Position numbers and translations under genes: made by a program. The notes under the pieces were generated by a model that was not told the origin of the DNA, made no database searches, and saw only the letters and a program-made list of their open reading frames with translations. A stretch of DNA of 54,198 bases from Yersinia artesiana (GTDB lineage Bacteria; Pseudomonadota; Gammaproteobacteria; Enterobacterales; Enterobacteriaceae), in the NCBI RefSeq assembly GCF_902726545.1, contig NZ_CACVAD010000003.1, positions 1 through 54,198 of the forward strand. The letters run 5' to 3'. This document shows, piece by piece, positions 1,583 to 32,209 of the stretch. Within the stretch, counting starts at the first letter, position 1. Every line of letters starts with the position of its first letter.

Positions 1583-1592
1583 ACATTTCATA

Positions 1593-1713
1593 CTGACGAC
1601 AAAGCCAAATGAAGGGGAGTCGTGCCGTTCGGGTCGTAGCGACGTTAGTCGCCGGAGTACCCGTAGGTGCGGTAACCCCTTCACTCCACAAGCTAAAAAG
1701 CAGATGTATTAAC
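1593..1713. repeat. Dispersed hairpin repeat, copy A (nadA-pnuC spacer)
   Basis: The core at 1610-1683 starts TGAAGGGG and ends CCCCTTCA. Inside are two further nested stems: CGGGT (1630-1634) with ACCCG (1659-1663), and GCGAC (1639-1643) with GTCGC (1648-1652) around a GTTA loop. A second copy lies at 13563-13685; the 74-base cores agree at 64 positions. Both copies share the left flank GACAAAG..AAA and end near TATTAAC. It lies inside an operon and would be transcribed. I do not know its family name. Confidence 0.75.
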
Positions 1714-1730
1714 AGCAAAAGGATAGCCAG

Positions 1731-13541: not shown

Positions 13542-13559
13542 CAGGTAAATGCTTATCTA
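13542..13559. repeat. 18-bp perfect direct repeat, left member
   Basis: CAGGTAAATGCTTATCTA occurs here and again at 13688-13705. The two copies closely bracket hairpin repeat copy B, like a target-site duplication. Confidence 0.85.
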
Positions 13560-13562
13560 AGA

Positions 13563-13685
13563 CTGCTGACAAAGTTAAATGAAGGGGAATCGTGCCGTTG
13601 GGGTCGTAACGGCGTAAGCCGTCGGAGTGCCCCTAGGTGCGGTCACCCCTTCACAAACTGAACTATAAATAGCTTTGCTATTAAC
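13563..13685. repeat. Dispersed hairpin repeat, copy B (modE-modF spacer)
   Basis: The core at 13580-13653 is the partner of copy A at 1610-1683. The stems are kept by paired changes: the inner stem is ACGGC/GCCGT instead of GCGAC/GTCGC, and the middle stem is GGGGT/GCCCC instead of CGGGT/ACCCG. It lies between modE and modF, so it is probably transcribed. Confidence 0.75.
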
Positions 13686-13687
13686 CT

Positions 13688-13705
13688 CAGGTAAATGCTT
13701 ATCTA
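13688..13705. repeat. 18-bp perfect direct repeat, right member
   Basis: This is the second copy of CAGGTAAATGCTTATCTA; see 13542-13559. Only the first ten bases recur again, at 11920-11929. Confidence 0.85.
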
Positions 13706-16585: not shown

Positions 16586-17643
16586 AACTGGATTTCAGCC
16601 AACAACTGGGTGATTTGCATTTACAAGTGAGCACTAATTTACCCGCCCAAGGTATTACCGCTATTTTTGGATTATCGGGGGCTGGTAAAACATCGCTGAT
16701 CAATGTGATTGGTGGTTTGACTCGTCCGCAGCAAGGCAAAGTTGTGCTTAATGGCCGGGTGCTGGTGGATGCAGAACAGAATATTTATCTGCCACCGGAA
16801 AAACGGCAGGTAGGTTATGTCTTTCAGGATGCGCGTTTGTTCCCCCATTATCGCGTAATGGGTAACTTGCAATATGGTATGAACCCGTCAATGCGCGGGC
16901 AGTTTGATACTATTGTAGGATTACTGGGGATTGAGGCGCTATTAGGGCGCTTCCCGTTAACCCTTTCTGGTGGTGAAAAACAGCGGGTAGCAATTGGCCG
17001 TGCCTTGCTGACCGCCCCTGAGCTGTTGTTGATGGATGAGCCTTTAGCCTCACTGGATTTGCCGCGCAAACGGGAACTGTTGCCGTATCTGGAACGGCTG
17101 GCGCAAGACGTCAATACACCGATATTGTATGTCAGCCACAGCATGGATGAGATTTTACGTTTGGCGGATCAAGTGGTGGTGATGGATGCAGGTAAAGTTC
17201 GCGCTGTTGGTGGCCTGGAAGAGGTGTGGGCCAGTAGTGCATTGCGTCCGTGGCTGCAACGGGAAGAGCCGAGCAGCATTTTGCGGGTGAGTGTCATTGG
17301 TCATCATGACCGTTACGCGATGACGGCACTGGCATTAGGCGACCAGCGGCTATGGGTCGGAAAGCTGGAGGCGCAAGAGGGCGATTCAATGCGTATCCGG
17401 ATAAATGCGGCCGATGTCTCATTGGTATTACAGCCCCCGCAAAACAGCAGTATTCGCAATATTTTGCCCGCTAAAATAGCCGAATGCCTTGAAGTTGATG
17501 GGCAGGTCGATGTCAAACTGGCTGTTGGCGACCAATGGTTATGGGCAAGAATTACACCATGGGCGCGGGATGAACTGGGGCTGAAACCCGGTCAGTGGGT
17601 ATACGCACAGATAAAAAGTGTGTCGTTTAATCGTAAGAATTGA
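16579..17643 (+). CDS. modC: Molybdate ABC transporter ATP-binding protein ModC
   Basis: ModC powers molybdate import. The 354-residue product has Walker [10 protein letters not shown] near residue 31, signature [15 protein letters not shown] near 130 and Walker B LLLMDEP near 151, with the switch histidine in SHSMDE. A C-terminal Mop/TOBE domain (about 290-354) can bind oxyanion and may give feedback inhibition. It is the last gene of modABC and is followed by a long palindrome with a U-run. Confidence 0.96.
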
Positions 17644-17660
17644 GAGATATAAACCTCTAC

Positions 17661-17792
17661 AACTCGATCTTAAGTGGTGAGGATAGGCAGAAGAGTAAAG
17701 CGTCCGCGCCAGGACGGCGCGGCTCGAGCCCCCAGGGAAGGGTTTACGGCGTCTTTACGATCTGCCTGTCTTCACCGCTGCGAGCTTTTTTT
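17661..17792. repeat. Long imperfect palindrome doubling as the modABC terminator
   Basis: The arms at 17661-17700 and about 17745-17785 are inverted relatives sharing GGTGA.GA.AGGCAGA and GTAAAG. An inner stem pairs CCGCGCC with GGCGCGG (17704-17722). TTTTTTT follows at 17786-17792, so a modC transcript would end here. I recognise this as a type of Yersinia intergenic palindrome but cannot assign a family name with certainty. Confidence 0.7.
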
Positions 17793-17803
17793 AACAAACT
17801 CGA

Positions 17804-18625
17804 TTATGCCAGCACATGCTGGCGGATAACTGCAGCAATGCCCGGTTGTTCATTATCGGCAATCACCAGATCGGCCCGTTGTTTGATGGCATCAGCGCTG
17901 TTGCCCATCGCCACACCTAAACCGGCGCTCTCAAGCATGCTCAGGTCGTTAAAATTATCACCAAAAGCGACCACATCTTTCATGCTCAAACCTTGAGATT
18001 CAACCCATTGTTGCAGGCGCATCCCTTTGCTGTTCCCAGCTTGGGCGATATCCACCTGATCATGCCACGACCATTCACATGCCAGCCCCATTTCATCTTC
18101 TACTTTGCTCGCAAATGTTTTTAGCTGGTCGATATCAGCATGGGAGGTGGCAAATTTCCAAATAGCATTGGCGCTGTGGGCGGCATCTAACAAGCTATCG
18201 ACATGAAGCAGGGTCGGGCGTTGGGCAATGGGTAATGATTCGGCCCAATTGAGGGAGCGCACGACATGTCCGCTACTCTGTTGATAAAGCATCGCATCGT
18301 CGACATACATCAGCCCGTGGATATCACTTTGCTCTAGCAACTGTAATACCTGAACCGCCTGCTGAGGTTCTAATGGGTTGGAGTCTAAAACTTTTTTGGC
18401 TTGATAATCATATATGTAAGTGCCATTACAGCAAATTGCCGGGGTATCGAGTTCGAGCGCCTGATAAAACGGATGAATCGCCACATGATGGCGGCCCGTG
18501 ACGACCACAACCTTGGCTCCTCCAGCGCGGGCTTGCGCCAGTGCGGACAAAGATTCTGGCAAAATACGTTTCTTGCTGTCGAGCAGCGTTCCATCCAAAT
18601 CCAATGCAATAATACGGTATGTCAT
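17804..18625 (-). CDS. ybhA: HAD-family phosphatase YbhA (pyridoxal phosphate phosphatase)
   Basis: YbhA is a Cof-type HAD phosphatase; the E. coli enzyme acts on pyridoxal phosphate and some sugar phosphates. The 273-residue product has the nucleophile motif ALDLDGTLLDS at 7-17, the threonine motif VVTGRHH near 62 and the late acidic motif GDNFNDLSM near 220. I start at 18625 (MTYRIIALDLDG), which fits E. coli length; upstream in-frame codons look non-coding. It is divergent from pgl and converges on modC. Confidence 0.9.
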   Translation of the reverse strand: MTYRIIALDLDGTLLDSKKRILPESLSALAQARAGGAKVVVVTGRHHVAIHPFYQALELDTPAICCNGTYIYDYQAKKVLDSNPLEPQQAVQVLQLLEQSDIHGLMYVDDAMLYQQSSGHVVRSLNWAESLPIAQRPTLLHVDSLLDAAHSANAIWKFATSHADIDQLKTFASKVEDEMGLACEWSWHDQVDIAQAGNSKGMRLQQWVESQGLSMKDVVAFGDNFNDLSMLESAGLGVAMGNSADAIKQRADLVIADNEQPGIAAVIRQHVLA

Positions 18626-30970: not shown

Positions 30971-31105
30971 AAAACAGCCATTGGCTATCTTACAGTTTTA
31001 GCGTTAGAATCTGGAGGAAAAGTGGGGTTTTTAGCGATTAGCGGCTATACCCAAAATGACTTTTTTAACCATGGTTCAGTTAGCTGTCAGTACAGTGACT
31101 GAGCA

Positions 31106-31226
31106 CAAACTCCTAGCCTTGGTGTCTACGTTGTTGCGTTTATGGACAATATGATGCCCTGGCCGTGGCTTTAAGCCACCAGGGTGCGAGGTAGAAATGC
31201 CTGCATCTCCCGTATTTGGAAAGGTG
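31106..31226 (+). ncRNA. Moco riboswitch in the moaA leader
   Basis: The leader matches the Moco RNA motif: CTCCTAGCCT at the 5' side, then ATGCCCTGGCCGTGGC, TTTAAGCCACCAGGG, GCGAGGTAGAAATGCCTGCA and TCTCCCGTATTTGGAAAGG. The 3' strand runs into the moaA ribosome-binding site. In E. coli this RNA senses the molybdenum cofactor and reduces moaA translation. Strength of the match: nearly every conserved block is present. Confidence 0.92.
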
Positions 31227-31228
31227 TT

Positions 31229-32209
31229 ATGGTACAACTTACAGACGCATTTGCGCGCAAGTTCTATTACTTGCGCCTATCGATTACCGATGTGTGTAAT
31301 TTTCGCTGCACATATTGCCTGCCCGATGGCTACCGCCCGGACGGAGTTAAAAGTTTTCTCAGCCTTGACGAAATAAGCCGCGTCAGCCGGGCATTCTCGC
31401 TATTGGGGACAGAAAAAATCCGCTTAACCGGTGGCGAGCCATCTATGCGCCGCGATTTTACCGACATTATCGCCACCATTCGTCAAAATCCCGCGATCCG
31501 CACCTTGGCGGTGACTACCAATGGTTACCGTTTAGCGCGTGATGCAGCCCAATGGCGTGAGGCGGGGCTGACGGCGATTAATGTCAGTGTTGATAGCCTC
31601 GACCCACGGCAGTTTCATGCCATCACCGGACAAAATAAATTTCATCAAGTGATGCAAGGAATTGATGCCGCTTTTGATGTGGGTTTTGAGAAAGTCAAAA
31701 TCAATGCCGTGCTGATGCGGGATGTCAATGACAAGAATCTCGGTGCATTCCTTAACTGGATAAAATCTCGCCCGATTCAACTGCGATTTATTGAACTGAT
31801 GGAAACCGGCGAGGGCGGCAATTTGTTCCGCAAGCACCATGTTTCCGGCAGCGTCATCCGCCAGCAATTGCTCCAGCAAGGCTGGCAGCAGCAAGAACGT
31901 GCGCGCAGCGATGGCCCGGCTCAGGTGTTTCATCACCCGGATTATCTGGGCGAAGTTGGGCTTATCATGCCGTATGAGAAAGACTTCTGTGCCAGTTGTA
32001 ACCGCCTGCGTGTTTCAGCGCTGGGAAATCTGCATTTATGCTTGTTTGGCGAGCAGGGTATTACGCTGCGTGATTTGTTGACCAGTGACGACCAGCAAGA
32101 TGAATTAATGGCGCGGATTCAAAGCGCATTGCAAACCAAGAAACAAACTCATTTCTTGCATCAAGGCAACAGCGGTATCACACAGAATTTATCGTTTATT
32201 GGTGGCTGA
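31229..32209 (+). CDS. moaA: GTP 3',8-cyclase MoaA
   Basis: MoaA is a radical SAM enzyme that, before MoaC, converts GTP toward cyclic pyranopterin monophosphate. The 326-residue product has the N-terminal cluster motif CNFRCTYC near residue 22, the SAM-site LTGGEPS near 72 and the C-terminal 4Fe-4S motif CASCNRL with a third cysteine in LHLCLFG. It ends in two glycines needed for activity. The ATG at 31229 aligns with E. coli. An upstream in-frame GTG (31184) lies inside the riboswitch. Confidence 0.96.

Follow-up and report, generated by a model that had tools for sequence, protein, structure and literature searches.

Two copies of a hairpin element in the window

The window, the whole stretch of 54,198 nucleotides from Yersinia artesiana analysed here, carries two copies of a short hairpin element and one copy of the related repeat YPAL/RU-2 (Table 1). 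Copy 1 begins 7 bp past the stop of the nadA ORF and ends 16 bp ahead of the pnuC ORF, and it is sense to both of these plus-strand ORFs. Copy 2 lies between two minus-strand ORFs, modE and modF, and is antisense to both, so the two copies are in opposite orientations relative to transcription; all four gene names come from reading the ORFs alone. The repeat is beyond chance, as a 20-base probe allowing up to three mismatches gave 2 matches against 0.00 expected. Both strands of both copies fold better than shuffled sequences (z -2.96 to -4.78), with plus-strand single-strand values of -2.96 and -4.78 for copies 1 and 2.

Direct comparison of the two 74-base cores gave exactly the 10 differences counted in an earlier sequence-only reading of this DNA. 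The three double base-pair swaps that it described are present from copy 1 to copy 2 (1630/1663 C-G to G-C, 1639/1652 G-C to A-T, and 1642/1649 A-T to G-C), and so is its one wobble change (1634/1659, T-A to T-G in the consensus fold), while the remaining three differences lie at unpaired positions of that fold. The extent of 120 bases that it proposed was nearly right, the actual unit being about 125 bp for copy 1 and 130 bp for copy 2. Elsewhere in the window, Rfam matches were obtained to the RtT RNA (119-240, 80.5 bits) and to the molybdenum cofactor riboswitch (31098-31242, 106.3 bits).

Table 1 Positions of the element copies and related features in the window. Bit scores are from model R1, which was built from 58 sequences, both window copies included.
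Feature	Position	Strand	Remarks
Copy 1 of the mobile element	1590..1714	+	About 125 bp, worn ends
Core hairpin of copy 1	1610..1683	+	Model R1, 97.3 bits over 1605-1689
Copy 2 of the mobile element	13560..13689	+	130 bp, YPAL-type ends AGACTGCTGACAAAG and CTTTGCTATTAACCTCA
Core hairpin of copy 2	13580..13653	+	Model R1, 105.5 bits over 13575-13659
Left copy of the 16-bp target duplication GGTAAATGCTTATCTA, beside copy 2	13544..13559	+	
Right copy of the 16-bp target duplication, beside copy 2	13690..13705	+	
Stretch with related YPAL/RU-2 copy	17640..17830	+	Rfam Ysr224 match on the minus strand, 17697-17801

Size and spread of the family

The genome search that the sequence-only reading had suggested revealed a family, with at least 40 scored matches (of 60 candidates) in the window's genome and matches in 22 of 25 genomes of the genus, from 1 to at least 34 in each. 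A covariance model made from 58 diverse genus copies detected the element in 13 of 147 sampled same-family genomes outside the genus, each belonging to a different genus; including the window's genus, the same search matched 15 of 149 genomes, two of them from that genus. A pattern search of named genomes found 31 stretches in five carriers, namely Leminorella grimontii, Serratia oryzae, Serratia sp. Ag1, Edaphovirga cremea and Limnobaculum allomyrinae. For S. oryzae and Leminorella the pattern was an exact one, which picks out cores that are alike. When 295 genomes sampled across the order were searched, with the best 15 candidates per genome scored under strict filters, matches came from the window's genus only (2 genomes). 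The occurrence outside the genus is patchy. With copy 2 as the only query, E. coli genomes, plasmids and phages gave no match at E 1e-5.

For further analysis, 160 copies from 13 genomes were aligned and grouped by their flanks into 101 loci, 36 of which had more than one copy. The genus copies fetched were the top BLAST hits, so the genus sample is biased to well-kept copies, and the motif used missed 12 of 65 loci.

A mobile unit of about 131 bp with YPAL-type ends

The terminal sequences TTCAGACTGCTGACAAA and CTTTGTCAATAACCTCA of YPAL/RU-2 are matched by the element family, and one degenerate 16-base end pattern fits both ends in opposite orientation. Both ends were recognisable, with at most five mismatches each, in 117 of 213 copies from several genera. 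The ends of copy 2 scored 28 (left; shuffle maximum 17) and 19 (right; 18) against YPAL, and the worn ends of copy 1 scored 15 (16) and 8 (16), not above shuffles. Alignment of the whole element to YPAL gave 17 for copy 1 (shuffle maximum 23) and 28 for copy 2 (25), compared with 157 for the window's own YPAL. The whole-element score of copy 2 equals that of its left end alone. Identity with the YPAL core was rejected, as the core scores at shuffle level apart from the ends, and so was identity with the 167-168 bp YPAL/RU-2, as 95 of the 117 two-ended copies measure 130-133 bp. The sequence-only reading had made no confident match to a named family; by its ends and targets the element can be linked to one, YPAL/RU-2.

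A survey of 40 comparisons with relatives found clean empty sites at four loci. In other cases the element was still in place, a different repeat was present or rearrangement was too heavy for a reading. At the site of copy 2, the relative G018 is without the element (empty site of L202) and has a single duplication unit, GGTAAATGATTACCTA. Locus L024 is empty in two genomes (5-bp duplication), and L029 and L178 each have an empty site with an 18-bp duplication. Both window sites (L001 and L010) hold a YPAL copy in the relative G006, scoring 140 and 177 against the window's YPAL (shuffles at most 21), and the sites of L005, L009, L012 and L019 hold YPAL in one relative each (scores 179, 128, 110 and 151). 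This suggests that the same places are filled repeatedly, or that cores are exchanged between shared ends. Loci L009 and L097 are apparently one site, with the element in opposite orientations in two relatives.

In S. oryzae, a search on the ends only found ten end-pattern pairs spanning exactly 131 bp. Nine S. oryzae copies of equal length had a mean identity of 0.985 over 36 pairs across the whole 132-bp unit, a likeness that is overstated because the copies were found with an exact core pattern. Judging from these sequences, movement in S. oryzae looks recent. The element has the traits of a MITE, being short, with terminal inverted repeats, target duplications and empty sites, and a unit of about 131 bp would be too short to encode a transposase. 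The element is a non-autonomous mobile element of about 131 bp.

Target duplications and insertion sites

A target duplication better than all 20 flank shuffles was detected in 52 of the 117 two-ended copies, some copies at the same locus being counted twice. None was detected in the other 65, the cut being such that only duplications of 9 bp or more could register, and none at copy 1. The detected duplications span 14-31 bp. Inverted-repeat arms of at least 4 bp were present in 46 of the 52, compared with 22% of shuffles, by a measure that tolerates an offset; a strict palindrome score flagged only 6 of the 52 because it demands exact centring, and the tolerant measure was used instead. For 30 of these 46, the arms run from the left edge to one base short of the right edge, at any length from 14 to 31. 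In 32 of the 52, the right copy is followed by a T-rich stretch or the left copy is preceded by an A-rich one, against about 4% per control 10-mer; this is a test of composition only, with the result expected beside intrinsic terminators. The detectable duplication is usually the whole target hairpin.

The sequence-only reading had placed the element in spacers inside operons. This was not borne out across the family, which is a mobile repeat, polymorphic for presence and absence, near gene ends. Convergent ORFs flank the element at 52 of the 101 loci, and at one more such locus an ORF overlaps it; the flanking ORFs are both on the minus strand at 27 loci, both on the plus strand at 18 and divergent at 1, with 2 unclassified, all counts being approximate given simple ORF calling. 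The codirectional sites (27 versus 18) show no significant orientation preference (p 0.23). At 71 loci a plus-strand ORF lies at the left, and 51 of these elements start within 60 nt of its end. Insertion is near gene ends, often at terminator-like inverted repeats. The abstract of De Gregorio 2006 reportedly describes insertion near stop codons and overlap with terminators.

Comparison with known repeats

YPAL/RU-2 resembles the element in its ends, its variable-length duplications at dyad symmetry, its intergenic sites and its use of the same sites in sister genomes, and differs from it in core and in length (167-168 bp versus about 131 bp). Its ends and target behaviour are given in Table 1b of PMC2759123, and section 11 of the review PMC2229807 reports YPAL duplications of 3-26 bp with targets that span or adjoin dyad symmetry. 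Excerpts of PMC2267715 list a class YPAL* of 130 bp with 10 copies, credited to De Gregorio 2006, and an HMM of length 136 with 26 matches in Y. pestis; its predicted structure is tabulated there as complex, not stem-loop. Compared by description only, YPAL* is like the element in length and genus and unlike its stem-loop in structure, and the element may be the same as, or overlap, this 130-bp class. The de novo Yersinia repeats Kristensenii39 (142 bp) and Aldovae3 (154 bp), as listed in Table 3 of PMC2847712, are abundant and of similar size by description; each has 5 E. coli matches there, whereas copy 2 as query had none.

ERIC/RU-1 is, by description, also a short palindromic mobile repeat of enterobacteria. 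A length of 127 bp is given for ERIC, and TA termini with TA duplications are described for enterobacterial repeats, in contrast to the 14-31 bp of the duplications detectable here. REP/BIME sequences are hairpin repeats as well, and the REP hairpin is the substrate of the RAYT transposase. REPs, however, measure 20-40 bp (PMC3733652), and the element instead has terminal repeats and long target duplications. Identity with RU-3 was rejected (scores 12 and 16, below shuffle maxima of 24 and 29). At the element, every Rfam family stays below its threshold; the small RNA family sR035 was rejected at 20.4 and 19.2 bits against a gathering score of 233, and the weak full-length match suggests, at the level of sequence, that a related copy may be transcribed. 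Literature on YPAL, miniature insertion sequences, terminators with duplication and related repeats, in a set not covering De Gregorio 2006, showed nothing on covariation or hairpin-length duplications. As far as these searches show, the covariation, a duplication made of the whole hairpin and the spread beyond the genus are new.

A conserved fold with compensating stem changes

The core of 74-85 bases keeps a single fold, made up of three helices, conserved internal loops and a GNRA-type loop. The loop columns carry G at 96 of 100 loci, A or G at 93 of 99, and A at 96 of 100. Strong conservation also marks the internal loops, around GGGUCGUA and CGGAGYGCCC, which are among the most conserved columns of the alignment. 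Apical pairs switch from one pair type to another, and very few of their cells are broken; one of them is U-A at 49 and C-G at 48 of the 101 loci, besides two others. Loci L208, L218, L235 and L261 have about 16 extra bases (CTCTTAGTTTCAAATACAAG-like) 5' of the apical stem, and at locus L022 an insert of about 16 bases of the same kind is present in G018 and G006 and absent from the window's genome. A form of about 202 bp in S. oryzae (L373) keeps the lower helices and has extra sequence with apparent further hairpins apically. In five loci of Leminorella and Limnobaculum (L301, L305, L308, L310 and L331), a second palindrome (around CCGGCCGAGCAC ... CGGCCGG) replaces the usual right end after the core.

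The covariation check proposed in the sequence-only reading showed stems changing in compensating pairs, both within the genus and beyond it. The genus alignment of 58 diverse copies comprised 50 of 52 diversity picks, six variants and the two window copies, and contains the sequences that the fold was drawn from. In it, both partners vary at 16 of 25 pairs, and 96.4% of cells are paired; double changes occur in 108 cells compared with 25.7 in shuffles, none of 500 shuffles being as high, and shifting the pairing partner by 1-3 columns abolishes the signal. The alignment across genera had 37 sequences (28 of 32 references and 9 copies from the genus of the window). Both partners vary there at 18 of 26 pairs, and 93.1% of cells are paired, again with none of 500 shuffles as high. 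In this alignment the lower and middle helices are also replaced in compensating fashion, beside the apical stem. In a tree-based null (60 simulations, 97 rows), pairs 52-63, 51-64 and 53-62 exceed every simulated value, while pair 54-61 (E 0.5) and the remaining pairs of the fold are not significant. Columns 32 and 86, inside an internal loop, show strong non-canonical covariation (mainly T with A and A with C) that is significant in the same null, and may reflect a tertiary contact or only linkage within subfamilies.

We also compared copies at the same locus. Among 47 same-locus pairs with at most 6 differences, there were 17 pair-breaking changes compared with 42 expected (0 of 1000 simulations as low), 34 pair-keeping changes compared with 26.5 expected (61 of 1000 as high) and 3 double changes compared with 0.6 expected (21 of 1000 as high). 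The rarity of pair-breaking changes suggests that the stems are protected at a locus too, or are refreshed by conversion from other copies. Differences numbered at least 8 in 12 of 59 same-locus pairs. As read by eye, 8 of the 12 have an exchanged apical stem (for example L003-L167 and L006-L120), and so does L006-L201. From the sequences, such exchange fits conversion or replacement.

Mutation and recombination might by themselves create compensated changes, through template switching within the palindrome together with gene conversion among a few subfamilies, and the exchanged apical stems and the fact that only three canonical pairs clearly exceed the tree-based null speak for this. However, template correction should erase the internal loops, which are instead so well conserved, and the compensation across genera extends to the lower and middle helices. 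We regard this account as improbable. The selection on a fold that the sequence-only reading had proposed is upheld by covariation over many copies, with the caveat that conversion between copies contributes. The fold is clearly constrained over many movable copies. The same-locus data show this constraint, but given the alternative of conversion they do not separate the routes to it, be it spreading, transcripts or partly conversion.

It is very improbable, in our judgement, that the fold works in double-stranded DNA, as a cruciform or as a site for protein binding. The long palindrome and the use of both orientations would suit such a role, but a single strand is the better match for the conserved GNRA-type loop and for internal loops that are long and unpaired. 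Wobbles also lean toward the plus strand, with 31 G-T versus 15 A-C (p 0.026), which is weak evidence because unpaired columns have a similar C-to-T bias.

Another possibility is that the fold is retained for its use to the host: a hairpin in the 3' UTR would block exonucleases, tune mRNA stability or provide a site for processing, as has been suggested for YPAL and ERIC. The closeness of many elements to the end of a plus-strand ORF, the shortage of pair-breaking changes within loci and the possible transcription suggested by the sR035 match are in its favour. So is the statement, in section 11 of the same review (PMC2229807), that YPAL is 'co-translated' (sic) with the genes before it and might have an effect on RNA stability. 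Yet either strand can be transcribed, sites are empty in close relatives, and the six sites named above hold YPAL instead, so no particular copy looks needed. We consider a host role rather unlikely to be what keeps the fold.

Search for an autonomous partner

Using exact YPAL-type ends, we detected no autonomous partner in the genus genomes G006, G012 and G018. Three units of about 1.54 kb in G006 were rejected as candidates, being YPAL copies with an IS110-family transposase gene inside; lying between YPAL halves, this gene appears to be a passenger. The gene is near-identical in the three YPAL copies (L239, L240 and L241), as if YPAL were its preferred target. At 16 further left-end loci in G006, right ends were mostly 97-181 bp away or none was convincing. 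Among the matches listed for S. oryzae ends, there was no clear unit of 1-3 kb; besides the ten pairs at 131 bp, the pairs spanned 94, 121 or about 202 bp. Locus L242 in G006 is a 280-bp unit in which a single pair of ends encloses both a variant hairpin core and a YPAL core, and its YPAL half is matched in 23 of 25 genus genomes.

Discussion

The explanation that we favour, at slightly better than an even chance, is that this is a non-autonomous mobile element sharing the ends of YPAL, whose folded single strand is needed for mobilisation by a putative trans-acting enzyme. Such an enzyme would cut each strand at the foot of a target hairpin, which would account for duplications whose length follows that of the hairpin. 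The folded single strand of the element would be its substrate or recognition feature, and copies that lose the fold would then stop spreading. With the hairpin duplicated, an intact terminator would be left beside the insertion, which would limit the cost to the host. Our preference for a role in spreading comes from the persistence of the fold in different genera and beside different host genes, in either orientation, and in copies that come and go. Selection on spreading alone does not predict that stems are protected within loci after insertion, unless conversion refreshes the copies.

More broadly, we tentatively propose, as an idea that is somewhat unlikely as it stands, that structure-guided transposition operates in Enterobacterales, with hairpins read in both element and target. 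A trans-acting enzyme would recognise the element's folded single strand by its GNRA-type loop and conserved internal loops, and would cut target DNA at both feet of a terminator hairpin, setting the duplication length to the hairpin length. YPAL, the element and the fused forms would then be interchangeable cores on the same ends.

Short palindromic repeats are commonly regarded as selfish relics. The present family raises two testable questions, namely what moves YPAL-type repeats and how such elements fill terminators without harming their hosts. It also carries a warning for annotation, as transcripts of single copies may be annotated as separate small RNAs. The window's YPAL/RU-2 copy, with its match to Ysr224, has at least 40 scored relatives in the genome, and single copies of mobile repeats may account for some of the small RNAs annotated in Yersinia.
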